24,371 nucleotides of DNA from a virus, in the IMG/VR virus record IMGVR_UViG_3300032293_000109, positions 1 to 24,371 of that record, one strand, 5' to 3'. A program made the position numbers and the translations under genes. Below, in pieces: positions 682 through 24,371 of this stretch (positions within the stretch are counted from its first letter, which is position 1; the number at the start of each line of letters is the position of its first letter). The notes under the pieces were generated by a model. The model ran no database searches, was not told the origin of the DNA, and saw only the letters and a list, made by a program, of their open reading frames with translations.

Positions 682-2567
682 GCGATAAATACACCCGCCG
701 CACTGAATATCACGACCGCATCATTGATAGCTTAAACCAGCGCGAGACTTGGGAGAACCGCCAGCGGTTGTTTTACCAAGCCAGATACTTTGGGGTTAGG
801 CGCAAGACTAAACCTTGGCCTACCGCCGCTGACCTTCACGTCCAGCTAATTGACGGCGCGATTGAGAAGTTAAAACCTAGCTTCGTCAACAGCGCAATTG
901 GCAATGACATCCTTTCCAGCTTCGTCCCGATGCGCCAGCAGTTAACCCCGATTACCGTATCTGCCGAGCGTTGGTTTGATTACAAGATGCGCGAGCAGTC
1001 TAACTTCCAGAAAGAGATTGTTTCGGTCATCGACAACTTGCTTCTCTACGGGCGCGGGTTAGCCAAGGTAGTCTGGAACGAGGACAAGAAGCAGATTGCC
1101 TTTGAGGCAATTGACCCGTTCCACGTGGTCGTACCGGCTTACTGCAAGAACTTGGCAGATGCAGATTTCATCGTTCACATCATTTCTATTTCAGTCGACA
1201 GCTACAAGACCAACCCGCTTTACAAGCAGGACAAGGAATTTGTCAAACGCATCAGCGGCAAGGTCAACGAATCGGTTGGGCTACGCAGCGAGATTCAAGA
1301 TGAGATTTACAGGCGGGAGGGGATTACGCAGGAGTCGGGCAATGATACTATCATCTTGTGGGAACTTTACACCCCGTCCAAGGACGGCTGGAAGGTTGAA
1401 ACCTACAGCCCGCTGGACGTGGAGACGGATGTTAGAAAACCTTTCACCTTACCTTACGAACACGGCGAACCACCTTTTGTCGATTTCCCCTATGAGTTGA
1501 CAGGGGGCGGTTGGTACAGTCCCAGAGGAGTCGCAGAAATCCTCCTCCCTGGTGAGAACCTGCTCAACAAACTCAAGAACTCATTGAGCGACTACGTTGA
1601 ACTGGCCAACCGACCCGTCTTTGAAGCACAGAATCCGATCTCGCTCAACACGGCAAATCTAAAGATGCAACCTGGGCAGATCCTGCCCCAAGGCTTAAAG
1701 CCCGTACAATTTAGCCAACCACCCTTCGACTTCCAGCGTTTGATGATGGAGGAGAAGATGTCGGCTGAACAGCGCATGGGTCAGTTTGATATGGGTGCTA
1801 GCTCGCAGTACCAAATCTCGGATCGCAAGACTGCGACTGAGGTTGCCGCTATCCAAGCCCAAGCCGCTGCTTCGGGCGATCTACGTAACCGCATCTTTAG
1901 GATGAGCCTGTCGCACCTCTTTAGGCAGTGCTGGTCGCTTTATGTGCAGTACGCCAAAGAGGACTTGCTGTTTAGGTACGCTGAAGAGACTGGTCAGATG
2001 GTTCCAGACGGCATCCACGCCGAGTATTCGATTGAGCCAAAGGGCGGGCTGGACTTTATCAACCGCCAGTTTGCCTTGCAGAAGTCAGTAGCGCGGATGC
2101 AGATGTTCCAAAATAATGTTTACATCAACCAAGGCGAGTTGGTAAAGTCGGTGCTTGAACAAGACGATCCCTCGCTGGTCCGCAGACTCTTCCAAGATCC
2201 GCAAGCCGCTTCTGGAGACCAAGCTGAAGATCAAGCGACTGAGATTGCAACGATGCTCGCCACTGGATTCCCAGTCGCAATCAAGCCTAGCGACGATCAC
2301 AAAGCGCATATATCTGTTCTCTTCGCATTTAACCAAGCGGCTCAACTCCGCCAGCAGCCGGTCGACCAGAGTGCAATGCAAGTTCTAATGGCGCACTTAC
2401 AACAGCATTTGCAGGCGTTGGAACAGATCGATCCCAACACATCCCGCGCTATCCAGAAACAGCTTCGTGATGCGGCCAAGGCAGACACTCGCCAACAAGG
2501 GCAAGCGGTAGGGGCAACACCTACTGAGGGTCAGCCGATGCAACAGGCCGCGCCGATGCCTGCTTGA
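678..2567 (+). CDS. Portal protein
   Basis: This encodes 629 residues, a usual length for podovirus-type portals. The portal is a dodecameric ring at one capsid vertex. DNA enters and leaves through it, and terminase, adaptor and scaffold dock on it. Visible hallmarks are the N-terminal helical part with WPTAADLHVQLIDGAIEKLK near residues 46-65, the DNLLLYGRGLAKVVWNED segment near residues 114-131 (the common 'early stem' pattern of portals), and IDPFHVVVP just after it. The C-terminal 100 residues are Gln/Ala-rich and helical (RQQPVDQSAMQVLMAHLQQH), like the helical barrel and disordered tails of P22-type portals. It sits between terminase and scaffold/capsid, the expected order. The start ATG overlaps the lipoprotein stop by 4 bases. 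Confidence 0.88.
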   Translation: MSDKYTRRTEYHDRIIDSLNQRETWENRQRLFYQARYFGVRRKTKPWPTAADLHVQLIDGAIEKLKPSFVNSAIGNDILSSFVPMRQQLTPITVSAERWFDYKMREQSNFQKEIVSVIDNLLLYGRGLAKVVWNEDKKQIAFEAIDPFHVVVPAYCKNLADADFIVHIISISVDSYKTNPLYKQDKEFVKRISGKVNESVGLRSEIQDEIYRREGITQESGNDTIILWELYTPSKDGWKVETYSPLDVETDVRKPFTLPYEHGEPPFVDFPYELTGGGWYSPRGVAEILLPGENLLNKLKNSLSDYVELANRPVFEAQNPISLNTANLKMQPGQILPQGLKPVQFSQPPFDFQRLMMEEKMSAEQRMGQFDMGASSQYQISDRKTATEVAAIQAQAAASGDLRNRIFRMSLSHLFRQCWSLYVQYAKEDLLFRYAEETGQMVPDGIHAEYSIEPKGGLDFINRQFALQKSVARMQMFQNNVYINQGELVKSVLEQDDPSLVRRLFQDPQAASGDQAEDQATEIATMLATGFPVAIKPSDDHKAHISVLFAFNQAAQLRQQPVDQSAMQVLMAHLQQHLQALEQIDPNTSRAIQKQLRDAAKADTRQQGQAVGATPTEGQPMQQAAPMPA

Positions 2568-3358
2568 TTAAGAACGTAGAATTTAATGTAACCCCGCAAG
2601 AGCGGGTAAAGTTATTCTTGGACGATGAACAATTCGGCCAAGAACTAATGCTCAAGTATTTTGCAAAAGAAAGCGTATACGAGCCAGAAACATTCTTACT
2701 ATTTAAGCGTCTGCTCAAAGAAGGCGACACCTTCATCGACATTGGCGGTCATGTCGGATTCTTTTCCATAGTATCCTCGGCACTGGTTGGCGTGTCTGGC
2801 AGGGTCTACACTTTCGAGCCAGAGCCTAAAAATTATCTGCACTTGTTACAACACATCCAAGTTAACAATTTGCGCAACATTACACCTCACTGCTGGGCAG
2901 TTGGTGATCAATCCAAGATGGTAGTGTTCAATCAAAACCAAGATTGTGATGGCGGTCATTCGCTGTGGGATTGCGGTAAGTTTGGTAACAATGTTAAAAG
3001 CCGCGAGAATCCAGTTAGGATAGCTACCTATATGGCATCCTTGGATGTAGAGCTTGCTGGCAGGGATCTGTCAAAATTAAAGCTGGTTAAGGCGGATGTG
3101 GAGGGAGCAGAGGAGCTAGCCCTGCGCGGGATGGAACAAATCTTAAAGACACACCAGCCGTTTGTTGTGGCTGAGATTCATGAATTTGGCTTAAATCAGA
3201 TGGGTAGCTCCGGACAAGCCTTGCGCAAGTACATGGAAAGTCTTGGTTATATTACTTATCTACTAGAAAAAGAAGAACCAGAATCCTTAGTTGGCAAACC
3301 ACTTCCCAATAAAGAATTTGTCTATAACGTGCTGTTTGCCGCTAAAGACCTACCATGA
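2564..3358 (+). CDS. FkbM-family SAM-dependent methyltransferase
   Basis: This encodes 264 residues. The start is taken as TTG at 2564, overlapping the portal stop, because the region after it already reads like the family; an internal ATG at 2648 would remove the first 28 residues. Motif I of Rossmann methyltransferases is clear (TFIDIGGHVGFFS, residues 56-68), followed by the acidic ribose-binding residue in VYTFEPEP (81-88). The FkbM signature KADVEGAEELAL is at residues 176-187. FkbM-type enzymes O-methylate sugars or other small hydroxylated groups. In phages they occur as cargo genes, and a role in modifying host surface glycans or a virion component is possible but not shown here. It splits the usual portal-scaffold order together with the HNH gene, and the DNA is AT-richer than the portal gene. 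Confidence 0.85.
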   Translation: MIKNVEFNVTPQERVKLFLDDEQFGQELMLKYFAKESVYEPETFLLFKRLLKEGDTFIDIGGHVGFFSIVSSALVGVSGRVYTFEPEPKNYLHLLQHIQVNNLRNITPHCWAVGDQSKMVVFNQNQDCDGGHSLWDCGKFGNNVKSRENPVRIATYMASLDVELAGRDLSKLKLVKADVEGAEELALRGMEQILKTHQPFVVAEIHEFGLNQMGSSGQALRKYMESLGYITYLLEKEEPESLVGKPLPNKEFVYNVLFAAKDLP

Positions 3359-3807
3359 GAAAACTACGCAGAGGCGACACAAGAGAAGACGGAATGATAT
3401 TCTGGTCATACTCATTCAACAATGAAATATGGCTAACACCAGAAAAACTGGCAATACGCAACCAGAAAAAATTAGCTTGGCAAAGAAAGAATGTTGATCC
3501 AATACAAAACAGAAAAAATGTAATGGAGTGGACAAAAAATAATTATGCTAGGAAGCTTGCGCGTGTCAGAAAATACCAAGCAATCAAGAGAAACTCAAAA
3601 GTATTGTGTGGCAAAAGCAATGTAATACATACTTTTTATGAGGCAGCCCGAAGGGTTGGGAGGTGCTTAGGAATAAAATTTCACGTAGATCATATTGTCC
3701 CACTTTCACTAGGCGGTTCTCATCATCAAAACAATCTGCAATGGGTTCCATATATTTGGAATCTATCAAAGCATAACAGGGAAAGCGGAAAGATATTTTC
3801 ACTGTAA
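3355..3807 (+). CDS. HNH endonuclease
   Basis: This encodes 150 residues, overlapping the FkbM gene by ATGA. The HNH core lies at residues 109-141: FHVDHIVPLSLGGSHHQNNL, with His113 as the likely general base after Asp112, Asn126/127 in the middle, and a closing K139-H140-N141. The N-terminus, MRKLRRGDTREDGMIFW, is a motif often seen at the front of free-standing phage HNH nucleases. The middle (residues 38-80) is Lys/Arg-rich and probably binds DNA. Such genes behave as homing endonucleases or as mobile cargo in phage late operons; some terminase-adjacent HNH proteins assist packaging, but this one is downstream of the portal. It is distinctly AT-rich against its neighbours, which fits recent acquisition. 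Confidence 0.85.
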   Translation: MRKLRRGDTREDGMIFWSYSFNNEIWLTPEKLAIRNQKKLAWQRKNVDPIQNRKNVMEWTKNNYARKLARVRKYQAIKRNSKVLCGKSNVIHTFYEAARRVGRCLGIKFHVDHIVPLSLGGSHHQNNLQWVPYIWNLSKHNRESGKIFSL

Positions 3808-5175: not shown

Positions 5176-6204
5176 ATGGCTAATGTTACTACAGGCTCTG
5201 TCTCTTCACAGTTTCAGGCCTTCTTCTCAAAGTCACTCTTAGAGAGGCAAATCCCCTTGCTCCAGATGGAGCAGTTTGCCCAAAAGGTTCCGTATCCGAC
5301 GAAAACTGGCGGCAACAAGACCGTCCGTTTCTTCCGATTCGACAACCCCAGCATTGCTTCAATCATCTCGCTGTCGGAAGGCACGAGTCCTACTGCTGGT
5401 ACGGGCGAGCGTCAGCTCACCCTCTCCACGGTCGAAGCCACGTTGGAACAGTTCGGATCTAGCATCGTCCTCACCGACGTATTGCTGGCCACCGAGCTAT
5501 TCAATCACTTGGCCCAGGCTACTAAGCAACTCGGTGAAGATGCAGCTCTCCATGCCGACACCCTCTCGCACCGCGCGTTGGTGTTGAACACGACTGCCTC
5601 CACGACTGCTGGTACGACTGTCTCTGCGGCGGCTTATTCCCGCTTCGCACAGAACGGAACCAACGGAACCAACTTCCAAGCGGCATCCACGGCTAACGCC
5701 GCGATGACTGCTTTGGATCTTCTGGATGCCGCGACTGCCCTCAAGGTCAACCGCGCTCCTAAGATCAAAGATGGTTACGTCCTCGTTGCTCCTCCTCAGG
5801 TCACCCGTGACTTGATGAACGACGATGACTTCCTTCGCGTTTCCTCCTACAGCACCCCCGATGCCATCTACAAAGGTGAAGTCGGTCGTCTGTTTGGCGT
5901 GAGCGTAATCGAAACCACCAACAACTTAACGGCTGGAACTGCTGCTTACGGTGTAAATACCGAAGCAACCGGCTCCAACTACGCCAGCATCGTACTCGGT
6001 GGGCAAGCCTTCGGCGTGCCTCACATGACAGCGGTTGCGGCCACTGGCTCGCCTTACGCGCCTAAGGTCACAATCCTCGATGCTCCTGACAAGTCGGACA
6101 TCTACGGTCAGCGCACCATCGCATCGTTCAAAACCTTCTATACTGCGAAGCAATTGAACCCTGCGTTCTATCGCGTTGTCTGGTCGAAGTCTAACTTCGC
6201 CTAA
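5176..6204 (+). CDS. Major capsid protein, N4-gp56 family type
   Basis: This encodes 342 residues and follows the scaffold. The pattern of the N4-gp56 family is visible: N-terminal FSKSLLERQIPLLQMEQFAQ (residues 15-34), the early strand KTGGNKTVRFFRFDN (43-57), the region TLSTVEATLEQFGSSIVLTD (81-100) and its helix, then the central VAPPQVTRDLMNDDDF and the domain GEVGRLFGVSVIETTN. The C-terminal DIYGQRTIASFKTF, leading to RVVWSKSNFA, closes the P domain. These proteins have the HK97 fold and build the icosahedral shell. Codon use is cleaner and GC-richer than the neighbours, as is usual for a highly expressed coat gene. A strong RNA hairpin follows 49 bases after the stop. Confidence 0.85.
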   Translation: MANVTTGSVSSQFQAFFSKSLLERQIPLLQMEQFAQKVPYPTKTGGNKTVRFFRFDNPSIASIISLSEGTSPTAGTGERQLTLSTVEATLEQFGSSIVLTDVLLATELFNHLAQATKQLGEDAALHADTLSHRALVLNTTASTTAGTTVSAAAYSRFAQNGTNGTNFQAASTANAAMTALDLLDAATALKVNRAPKIKDGYVLVAPPQVTRDLMNDDDFLRVSSYSTPDAIYKGEVGRLFGVSVIETTNNLTAGTAAYGVNTEATGSNYASIVLGGQAFGVPHMTAVAATGSPYAPKVTILDAPDKSDIYGQRTIASFKTFYTAKQLNPAFYRVVWSKSNFA

Positions 6205-22207: not shown

Positions 22208-22935
22208 TGGCGAAATTTGACATCAGCGGGGCGGCTTCTCGTTTTACTGGGTTAGAACCCCGTATGCGGAATGAGTCTATCCGCAAAGAACTAGAGCCAT
22301 ACACGGCTGCGCCACAACAACCACCAGAACAGACCGCAAGGATTGAACCTATGAGCGAATACGTTAGACCACCAACAGAACCACAACCATCTGGCGAACT
22401 TCCGCTACCATTGCAAACCGTGGAATGGGAAGGTCGCAAGGACAAGCAGGGAAATCTTGCCGTCTACAAGTTGCCATCTGGAGATATGGGTGGAAACTTT
22501 GAAGTAGCTGGAATCAATGACCGATACCATCCAGAAGCATTCAAAGCCATCTCATCGCTCCCAGCGCAAGAAAGAGCGAAAGCTGCGGCAGAGTACATCC
22601 AAGGATACACCGCGCCACTTGTCGAAAGACTCCCCCAACCACTCCAGCCATTCACGCAGGATCTCGCGTTTAATCGTGGGCTGGGCGGTGCAACGAAATA
22701 CATCCAGCAAGGACTAAACGCTCTTGGTCAGAAGGTGGCGGTGGATGGTGGGTTTGGTCCTAAGACATTAGCCGCGATCAATCAAGTTGAGCCAAGAGCA
22801 TTGATGCGTGCGGCCAGCGATGCTCAATTGCAGGATGAATACAAGCGAGCAGAGCTTGATCCAAACCGAAGGAAATTCATTCCTGGCCTAGAGGCCAGAA
22901 TTAGGAATAGATTGTCAACCTTTGGGCAGGGCTAG
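22207..22935 (+). CDS. GH108-like lysin with C-terminal peptidoglycan-binding domain
   Basis: This encodes 242 residues with ribosome-binding site GGAGAG just before a TAATG junction. Residues 1-65 form an N-terminal extension, Pro/Glu-rich (YTAAPQQPPEQTARIEPMSE). The domain from residue 71 on has VEWEGRKDKQG with Glu73/Glu75, a candidate catalytic acid, then PSGDMGGNFEVAGINDRYHP (90-109), corresponding to the D-x-GG region of GH108 lysozyme-like enzymes. The C-terminus has the PG_binding_3 pattern: DLAFNRGLGGATKYIQQGLN (152-171), VAVDGGFGPKTLAAINQVEP (177-196), FIPGLEARIRNRL. It would hydrolyse peptidoglycan for entry or lysis. The linker and its position with the ejection genes would suit a virion-associated lysin, but endolysin is equally possible. 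Confidence 0.7.
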   Translation: MAKFDISGAASRFTGLEPRMRNESIRKELEPYTAAPQQPPEQTARIEPMSEYVRPPTEPQPSGELPLPLQTVEWEGRKDKQGNLAVYKLPSGDMGGNFEVAGINDRYHPEAFKAISSLPAQERAKAAAEYIQGYTAPLVERLPQPLQPFTQDLAFNRGLGGATKYIQQGLNALGQKVAVDGGFGPKTLAAINQVEPRALMRAASDAQLQDEYKRAELDPNRRKFIPGLEARIRNRLSTFGQG

Positions 22936-23309
22936 GGCTTCCTCATACTGGAACTTGCGCCTCCAGATACAATGGTTGCCCCGCCAGATCCAAAGAAAAC
23001 ATCTCCAGAGCCATATCTGATTCCAGTTCTTCCAGCAAAGATGTCTCCATTTCTTGAAACAATTCCTTTTGGACAAGAATATACGCCATTATTATCCGTG
23101 TATACTCCCTTGGGAGTTATGTAAACATCTCCATTCCGCAATATCAATTTACCATTAACTAATGCTTGGTCGTTACTTAAAATAACAGCAAATCCTTTCT
23201 CCCCATAAACTCCTCCAACAAATGCCTCCATTTTGCCAGCATCCTCATCATCCGCCATTCCCGATGCCATCAGCATCGCCATCAGTGTTATAGTTGTTAT
23301 TGCTTTCAT
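22932..23309 (-). CDS. Exported repeat protein on the opposite strand
   Basis: This is the only convincing - strand gene. It encodes 125 residues and starts with a signal peptide, MKAITTITLMAMLMASGMA, with likely cleavage after Ala19, before an acidic DDEDAG. From residue 59 it consists of four imperfect 13-15 residue units: NGDVYITPKGVYTD, NGVYSCPKGIVSR, NGDIFAGRTGIRYG and GDVFFGSGGATIVSG, suggesting a small beta-solenoid or hairpin stack, with one Cys (79). The stop shares CTAG (22932-22935) with the lysin stop. No ribosome-binding site is seen; a promoter-like motif lies just upstream at 23319-23345. I recognise no family. An exported cargo protein of the phage that acts in the host envelope is a guess from the signal peptide and orientation. 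Confidence 0.7.
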   Translation of the reverse strand: MKAITTITLMAMLMASGMADDEDAGKMEAFVGGVYGEKGFAVILSNDQALVNGKLILRNGDVYITPKGVYTDNNGVYSCPKGIVSRNGDIFAGRTGIRYGSGDVFFGSGGATIVSGGASSSMRKP

Positions 23310-23318
23310 AGGAAAAAG

Positions 23319-23345
23319 TCTCTAGCACAAACCGAAATCCGTCAA
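23319..23345 (-). promoter_or_regulatory. Promoter-like motif for the - strand gene
   Basis: On the - strand TTGACG (23345-23340) is followed after 15 bases by TAGAGA (23324-23319), and the ATG of the gene starts at 23309. The wording TTGACGG-TTT-GG and CTAGA-ACT is repeated on the + strand before the gene at 23963. The spacing is short for sigma70 and the transcript would be nearly leaderless. It lies in the 38-base gap between divergent genes. Confidence 0.35.
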
Positions 23346-23347
23346 GC

Positions 23348-23731
23348 ATGAAATTAACATCACGCCAAATTGGTGCAGTTGGGGTGGCTCGCGTCACCGG
23401 CGCGTTACTGCGGTGCGGGTATTCGGTGTTGTTACCTTACGAGGATTTTTCTGGCTATGATGTAGTGGCTGAGAAGAATAATAAGTTCTTCCGCATCCAA
23501 GTTAAGACCGCGCAAACTGTAGAGGCAGGACGCACCAAGTATCGCTTCAGCACTAGCAGCGGGAATGGATACAACATCCCCAAGCGTGCTATCAGTGGCG
23601 TGGATTATGTGGCCTGCTGGGGGATGAACGATGATTTATTTTGGCTGTTGCCAATTGCCAAGTGCAGATCGGTGACAACTAAGCTTTGCCCATCGACAGG
23701 ACAGAGTTGGCGTGTATTCCAGAACCTATGA
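23348..23731 (+). CDS. PD-(D/E)xK family nuclease
   Basis: This encodes 127 residues starting MKLTSRQIGAVGVARVTGAL. The fold pattern is clear: an N-terminal helix (GAVGVARVTGALLRCGYSVL), then SGYDVVAEKNNKFFRIQVKT with the acidic residue Asp38 and the Q-x-K pair Gln51-Lys53, the usual PD-(D/E)xK active-site variant. The continuation (TKYRFSTSSGNGYNIPKRAI, then DYVACWGMNDDLFWLLPIAK) agrees with phage/prophage nucleases of the Holliday-resolvase-like group. It may cut branched DNA or act as a defence or homing nuclease; the substrate is not evident. It diverges from the - strand gene over 38 bases and has no visible ribosome-binding site. The stop overlaps the next ATG. Confidence 0.7.
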   Translation: MKLTSRQIGAVGVARVTGALLRCGYSVLLPYEDFSGYDVVAEKNNKFFRIQVKTAQTVEAGRTKYRFSTSSGNGYNIPKRAISGVDYVACWGMNDDLFWLLPIAKCRSVTTKLCPSTGQSWRVFQNL

Positions 23732-23907
23732 ACGAGGCGCAAGCATGGGAAAAGTTTGAGGAAGCTATGCGCGATGTGGAATCATTCGATGAGGCGATGG
23801 CGTGGTTAAACAAGAATCCAGAAATACGAGAAGGACTGACCGTGTTTGAGATGATGAGAAACTTTAATAAGGACATTAGAGACGCTAATAAGTATAACCG
23901 CAATTAG
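23728..23907 (+). CDS. Small helical hypothetical protein
   Basis: This encodes 59 residues from ATG 23728, overlapping the nuclease stop as ATGA. It is acidic and helical: MNEAQAWEKFEEAMRDVESF, then DEAMAWLNKNPEIREGLTVF and EMMRNFNKDIRDANKYNRN. No family is recognised. Coupling to the PD-(D/E)xK gene suggests a partner or regulator, but no motif confirms this. An in-frame upstream start at 23686 would add 14 residues and lie inside the nuclease gene. Confidence 0.6.
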   Translation: MNEAQAWEKFEEAMRDVESFDEAMAWLNKNPEIREGLTVFEMMRNFNKDIRDANKYNRN

Positions 23908-23925
23908 GCAGTAGCACATTTTGTG

Positions 23926-23955
23926 TTGACGGGTTTGGGGGTGGCTGGCTAGACA
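23926..23955 (+). promoter_or_regulatory. Promoter-like motif before the last nuclease gene
   Basis: TTGACG (23926-23931) and TAGACA (23950-23955) are separated by 18 bases and precede the ATG at 23963. The same words, TTGACGG-TTT-GG and CTAGA-ACT, occur before the - strand gene. The -10-like part lies inside a perfect inverted repeat at 23947-23961. The -10 match to the sigma70 consensus is weak. Confidence 0.3.
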
Positions 23956-23961
23956 CTAGCC
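23947..23961 (+). promoter_or_regulatory. Inverted repeat overlapping the putative -10 region
   Basis: GGCTAG (23947-23952) and CTAGCC (23956-23961) flank ACA, forming a perfect 6-bp inverted repeat that ends two bases before the ATG at 23963. It could be an operator or a small RNA hairpin covering the start region. Confidence 0.3.
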
Positions 23962-23962
23962 C

Positions 23963-24371
23963 ATGGGCAAGATCAATAGCCGAGCTAAGGGAGCGCAAGG
24001 GGAGAGGGAGTTGGCGGGATACTTGCGGGAACAGGGCTGGCAGAAGGCTAGGCGCACCCAGCAATACGCTGGCAACCCAGAGGGCGGTAGCGGGGATGTA
24101 GTCTGCGAGAATTTCCCATTTCATATCGAAGGCAAACGATGCCAAGCACTCAAGCCCGAAGAGTGGATGGCGCAGGCCAAGCGGGATTGTCCAGCGGGTA
24201 AGATCCCAGCGGTGTTCTTCCGCCGCAATGGGCGCAAGGAATGGCTAGTAGTTTTAACCGCTGATGATGTTTGCGAGCTGGCGCGGCAACTTGCCCCAGC
24301 CAGAGAAATAAAGATCGACTATATGCCATCGACCGATGTAAAAGGTTTTTATGTCACTAGCCCGCACGACC
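23963..24371 (+). CDS. Holliday-junction-resolvase-like PD-(D/E)xK nuclease (partial, runs off the end)
   Basis: The first 136 residues are in view; the end is outside the window. The start is fixed at ATG 23963 because an in-frame TAG lies at 23957-23959. The archaeal Hjc-like pattern is visible: SRAKGAQGERELAGYLREQG (residues 6-25, with Glu14/Glu16), then GGSGDVVCENFPFHIEGKRC (41-60) with Asp45 and Glu56-x-Lys58, the PD-(D/E)xK catalytic set. KPEEWMAQAKRDCPAGKIPA and FFRRNGRKEWLVVL complete the core. These enzymes resolve branched DNA during phage replication or recombination before packaging. It lies 55 bases after the 23728 gene, behind a possible promoter. Confidence 0.75.
   Translation, partial: MGKINSRAKGAQGERELAGYLREQGWQKARRTQQYAGNPEGGSGDVVCENFPFHIEGKRCQALKPEEWMAQAKRDCPAGKIPAVFFRRNGRKEWLVVLTADDVCELARQLAPAREIKIDYMPSTDVKGFYVTSPHD

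Follow-up and report, generated by a model that had tools for sequence, protein, structure and literature searches.

The window analyzed here is a stretch of 24,371 nucleotides, i.e., positions 1 to 24,371 of the IMG/VR virus record IMGVR_UViG_3300032293_000109. Toward its 3' end it carries a small minority-strand gene, for which no Pfam or PHROG match was obtained at E 0.001, a PD-(D/E)XK endonuclease gene and a nuclease gene (Table 1). It had been proposed that the small gene and the nuclease gene, which lie on opposite strands, are both preceded by the composite motif TTGACGG-TTT-GG followed, after a gap, by CTAGA-ACT. A pattern search of the 24,371-base record confirmed this exactly: the only two exact matches run from 23345 to 23317 on the minus strand (site 1) and from 23926 to 23957 on the plus strand (site 2), and the reversed pattern, used as a control, has none. 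The gap measures 6 bases at the minus-strand copy and 9 at the plus-strand copy, and the distance from ACT to the ATG is 7 bases at site 1 and 5 at site 2. When up to two mismatches are allowed, the 14-mer occurs at five places in the record, with zero mismatches at sites 1 and 2 only. Among the 45-nt stretches upstream of 194 ATG ORFs (at least 60 aa, nested starts included) the two sites form the sole pair, under a criterion that was set after the motif had been seen; any such pair before ORFs arose in 3 of 200 dinucleotide shuffles.

Table 1. Features of the locus, with coordinates in the window.
Feature	Coordinates	Strand	Remarks
Small gene, 125 aa	22932..23309	-	N terminus resembles a signal peptide (by eye); 7 nt between -10 and ATG
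Site 1 -10 element GAGACT	23317..23322	-	17 bp from -35; alternative register TAGAGA 23319-23324, 15 bp
Site 1 -35 element TTGACG	23340..23345	-	TTGAC in 68/69 unique sites
PD-(D/E)XK endonuclease gene (PF11645)	23348..23731	+	Start 2 bp from site 1 -35
Site 2 -35-like element TTGACG	23926..23931	+	TCGAC in 55/69 unique relatives
Inverted repeat GGCTAG-aca-CTAGCC	23947..23961	+	Spans site 2 -10
Site 2 -10-like element TAGACA	23950..23955	+	18 bp from -35, 7 nt before ATG
Nuclease gene	23963..24371, runs off record	+	PDDEXK_15 PF24608; phrog_244 RusA-like resolvase; first gene after site 2

Conservation of the Two Sites in Related Phages

Relatives were collected from IMG/VR by four viral scans with the nuclease as query, each returning 281-326 relatives, of which the best 80 were used, so that the sample consists of close relatives. 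Counts are given as unique sequences because many contigs occur repeatedly among the loci; these unique sequences are not independent of each other. For site 2 the sample comprises 224 loci, which yield 80 distinct 42-nt sequences preceding the nuclease, and for site 1 it holds 69 distinct sequences from 202 loci (13 of 215 were too short). Wherever a locus extends far enough, the genes detected by tblastn stand in the order endolysin-like gene, minority-strand gene, PDDEXK_5 gene and nuclease. Site 2 is directly preceded by a small gene in the window, as in all six relatives checked; the idea that the stop of this gene is read through into site 2 was considered on paper and rejected, as the frames disagree between relatives.

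The composite motif is not conserved as a single unit. Its first half, TTGACGG-TTT-GG, is retained in only 6 of the 80 unique site 2 sequences, all from the close clade of the window, and in 26 of the 69 unique site 1 sequences; CTAGA-ACT is retained in the same six at site 2 and in 48 of 69 at site 1. In the close relatives the composite instead resolves into two conserved elements. If the -10 boxes are GAGACT (site 1) and TAGACA (site 2), they lie two bases apart in the CTAGA-ACT alignment, with spacers of 17 and 18, and the alignment of the original prediction thus probably placed the two boxes 2 bp out of register. What the two sites have in common is TTGAC and TA[A/G]; the spacing and the final base of the -10 differ, and no enrichment was found, so that the notion of one motif common to two genes holds only in part. 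Conservation among the relatives argues more strongly than the shuffles that the sites are real.

At site 1, TTG[A/C]CN-N16/17-NANANT-N6/7-ATG is present in all 69 unique sequences and in 202 of 202 long-enough loci, a pattern that allowed some freedom in spacing and that itself demanded the A2, A4, and T6 seen in all 69. The spacer is 17 bp in 66 unique sequences and 16 bp in three, and the -10 hexamers are GAGACT (43), GATACT (10), GAGAGT (5), CAGACT (4), CAGAGT (2), GAGATT (2), and one each of GAAACT, AAGACT, and GATATT. Every one of the 69 thus combines a TTGACA-like -35, a -10 with A2 and T6 and a spacing within 16-18 bp, a layout that is sigma70-like and from which the transcript, with a start ca. 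7 nt after the -10 as in promoters of that type, should begin at or beside the ATG. Since TA just upstream of the -10 (GANANT) is retained in 65 of the 69, TAGAGA with a 15-bp spacer is a possible alternative register; we prefer the NANANT register with 17 bp because of its spacing and its constant A2 and T6, and the kept TA slightly lowers our confidence in the explanation put forward below. The relatives of the minority-strand gene (22932-23309) have similar signal-peptide-like N termini followed by several very different glycine-rich mature parts, which differ like a swapped cassette even between the close relatives L009 and L010 (by eye, in the 23 of 69 proteins inspected).

Site 2 follows T[T/C]GACN-N17/18-TARNNN-N6/7-ATG in 69 of 80 unique sequences, with a spacer of 18 bp in 65. 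Its -10 hexamers are TAAACC (33), TAAAAC (14), TAGACA (11), TAGACC (7), TAACAC (2), and TAGAAC (2). A2 and the spacing fit the sigma70 type, but a final T is found in none of these 69, and for that reason site 2 was not filed as sigma70. Among the 11 sequences that deviate, seven (one clade) carry a 78-aa ORF as an insertion ahead of the nuclease and two (L173 and L181) a 77-aa ORF; L204 is truncated, and in L119 the two boxes are retained with a spacer of 13 bp. In all ten inserted-ORF loci examined (L019, L020, L029, L060, L066, L155, L163, L173, L181, and L215) the inserted ORF is itself preceded by a TTGAC...TAG...ATG site, as would be expected of an operon promoter. The 77-78-aa ORF of L019, L155, L215, L173, and L181 lies between site 2 and the nuclease, and its end crosses the nuclease start codon; the ORF of L019 gave no PHROG match.

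Inverted Repeat over the -10 of Site 2

A perfect inverted repeat of at least 5 bp spans the site 2 -10 in 59 of the 69 unique sequences. Its arms are GGCTAG-CTAGCC in the window and, for example, GGTTTT-AAAACC, GTTGGT-ACCAAC, or CATCG-CGATG in relatives, with TGGCTA-TAGCCA before an inserted ORF. Site 2 arms thus differ between lineages yet remain complementary, and site 1 lacks such a repeat. When the halves were exchanged across lineages, the mean repeat length fell from 5.50 to 4.62, 5.30 to 4.48, and 5.50 to 4.29 bp at three clustering levels with 14, 10, and 8 representatives; the observed mean was reached in 142, 196, and 59 of 20,000 permutations, respectively, and in none of 5000 when six inserted-ORF loci were added. 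No repeat signal was obtained in the controls, i.e., at site 1 (own vs. exchanged halves 2.67 vs. 2.70, p 0.72) and in the stretch upstream of site 2 (3.00 vs. 3.10). A shuffle test on single sequences, run on 11 representatives (among them L155, which is coding sequence from an inserted-ORF locus and not site 2), gave p 0.02-0.03 in six and >0.1 in five. No single sequence is therefore striking, and it is the cross-lineage test that carries the claim of a covarying repeat. Two lineages, L018 and L016, are without a good repeat (stems of 3 and 4), and single pairs are broken in members of lineages. The symmetry center lies between -2.5 and +5 bp relative to the -10, the loop is 3 to 11, and the repeat ends 0-7 nt before the next ATG in 17 of 17 representatives, in three of them the ATG of the inserted ORF. 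An Rfam search of 22800-24371 gave nothing at E 1.

Promoter Class and Further Sites

The original prediction of a phage-specific promoter is not supported: site 1 has a sigma70-type layout, the motif is present in only two copies in the record, and no match to sigma-70 region 4 was obtained in the 11 records of the phage group searched, a search in which the controls responded but the records may be fragments. T7-type RNA polymerase was likewise found in none of the 11 records, a weak result as no control responded. A promoter class dispersed over the genomes was also considered and rejected, since in 20 records there was no enrichment over reversed patterns (TTGAC-N-CTARNC gave 23 matches vs. 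20 for the reversed pattern). A looser pattern, TTGACN-N16-18-[TG]ANNNT-N5-8-NTG, searched for ahead of ORFs of 40 aa or more, has 13 matches on 11 contigs, i.e., seven at site 1, three before the small gene that diverges from the small terminase gene, and three before other small ORFs, two of which have TTG starts. With 59 permuted -35 words the mean was 3.6 matches, and one of the 59 reached 13 or more.

The gene divergent from the small terminase gene is preceded by TTGACA-N16/17-TATGTT or TAGATT-N6-ATG in G004, G010, and G011 and by TTGACA-N17-CATCTT-N6-ATG in G003 and G006, and the small terminase gene of G003-G006 has TAGGGT or TATAGT 6 nt before its start (by eye). The short intergenic region that the small terminase gene and the small divergent gene have in common in G006 (5628-5699) bears starts of the leaderless type on either strand. 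Several first genes thus have such starts, and the composite motif does not form a class of its own.

Interpretation of the Sites

The proposal that both transcripts are nearly leaderless gains sequence-based support from the spacing and the -10-to-ATG distance conserved in the relatives. At both sites the -10 box ends 6 or 7 nt short of the start codon, within the 6-8 nt expected of a leaderless gene, and by eye no Shine-Dalgarno sequence is present at either site of the window. The explanation that we consider probable, with moderate confidence, is that sites 1 and 2 are leaderless host-polymerase promoters and that the repeat at site 2 is most simply a control site. Host RNA polymerase would use both sites, giving mRNAs that begin at or within 1-2 nt of the ATG; site 1, of the sigma70 type, would drive the small minority-strand gene, and site 2 would act like such a promoter for the nuclease, or for whichever gene stands first there, with the repeat as a DNA operator or an RNA hairpin restricting the time of nuclease synthesis. 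Early-class expression, as originally suggested, is plausible at site 2 because it fronts the nuclease and, in the relative G006, a gene of an exonuclease family that lies two genes further along. A consensus promoter scan lists neither site, since their -10 boxes match TATAAT poorly.

In leaderless bacterial genes, a TANNNT -10 is reported to precede the start codon by about 12 bp (PMC3160421). The phage -10-like boxes similarly start 12-13 nt before the ATG without a Shine-Dalgarno sequence (by eye), and site 1 has the A2 and T6; in contrast to the genes in that account, position 1 at site 1 is G, C, or A, site 2 has no T6, and the phage sites possess a conserved -35. A chance resemblance, with neither site being a promoter, would be compatible with the pairs found in shuffles and with a composite that, beyond TTGAC and TA[A/G], is mostly unconserved at site 2. 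However, each site on its own keeps its boxes at near-fixed spacing (69/69 and 69/80 unique sequences), and we consider coincidence very unlikely. It is highly improbable, too, that TAA/TAG at site 2 merely serves as a stop codon in frame with the nuclease ATG that follows. TAR is indeed in frame in 63 of the 69 unique sites, where its third base is always A or G, but it is out of frame and nonetheless kept in the other six, the clade of the window among them, it is also kept before the inserted ORFs examined (13 nt), and a stop codon leaves the distance to T[TC]GAC unexplained.

For the repeat, a DNA operator whose repressor has a different specificity in each lineage is a reasonable though tentative reading, which fits the position of the repeat over the -10 and its changing arms. 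RNA folding at the repeat (mean z -0.92, n = 11 lineages) is matched by that of the antisense strand (-0.95), as would be expected of a DNA element. The wandering symmetry center and the variable loop, however, are unlike the site of one dimer, and no HTH_3 match exceeded the cut-off in 11 records; the two below it both fall, by position, in the small terminase gene. A possible but rather unlikely alternative is a switch as described for the T4 genes e, soc, I-TevI, and mobE, in which the promoter lies inside a hairpin (PMC2988022, PMC3014915): read-through messages from upstream would fold against the nuclease AUG and be silenced, and the leaderless message of the site itself would lack the hairpin and be translated. 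As in T4, insofar as these reports describe it, the promoter overlaps an inverted repeat just before the gene start and the upstream genes are co-oriented with the nuclease; the constant proximity of the repeat to the next ATG and strong folding (z -3.2) in two of the 11 lineages also agree with such a switch. Unlike in T4, site 2 has no Shine-Dalgarno sequence to hide (by eye) and is not a T4 late promoter, and the folding is weak on average and equally strong antisense, being unremarkable in nine of the 11 lineages. Mismatches in the repeat are not clearly in favor of RNA pairing either: G-T outnumbers A-C by 11 to 5, but six of the 11 G-T are one pair in one lineage, and this count left out eight sequences of two lineages with stems <5 bp. 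The least probable reading is that the nuclease, which carries the label of the RusA-like Holliday-junction resolvase family, binds the cruciform of the repeat by its shape and so represses its own leaderless promoter; this would leave the arms free to change and to slide in register while they remain complementary. I-TevI is reported to repress itself via an operator over its own promoter that resembles its homing site (PMC2988022). The nuclease similarly has a possible binding site over its promoter, whereas the arms at site 2 vary in sequence.

Judged by titles and abstract openings, the papers listed in searches on leaderless starts in Verrucomicrobia, leaderless phage promoters with operators, resolvase-cruciform autoregulation and leaderless phage start maps include none evidently on this case. 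The phages concerned are known from metagenomes only, and leaderless promoters in them would hint at the host and at the mode of translation used by this uncultured group. A covarying repeat over a promoter, with arms free to change, would offer a simple testable case of either structural control or drifting repressor specificity.

Host and Other Genes

Leaderless starts are reported to make up ca. 10% of the mapped starts in Akkermansia vs. 0.4% in E. coli (PMC4782308). The best-ranked relatives of the TerL of G006 in the phage collection are Akkermansia phages (36-39% identity); the window itself is without TerL. Both observations suit a Verrucomicrobiota host but do not show one: in the phage collection, the major capsid protein of the window had matches to Streptomyces phages and gut phages only. 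A genome search with the nuclease alignment returned 44 distant relatives in varied bacteria, and a match was present in 9 of the 288 genomes that belong to the same class as a genome with the title Verrucomicrobia, which is a lead and not a host assignment. The PDDEXK_5 query found no relative in the host genome search, and ARAGORN found no tRNA genes. For the 1604-aa protein, the match is to a virion structural family. The segment from the portal gene to the capsid gene contains an FkbM-type methyltransferase gene (2564-3358) and an endonuclease VII/HNH-like gene (3355-3807), the Pfam HNH match of the latter being below its cut-off.
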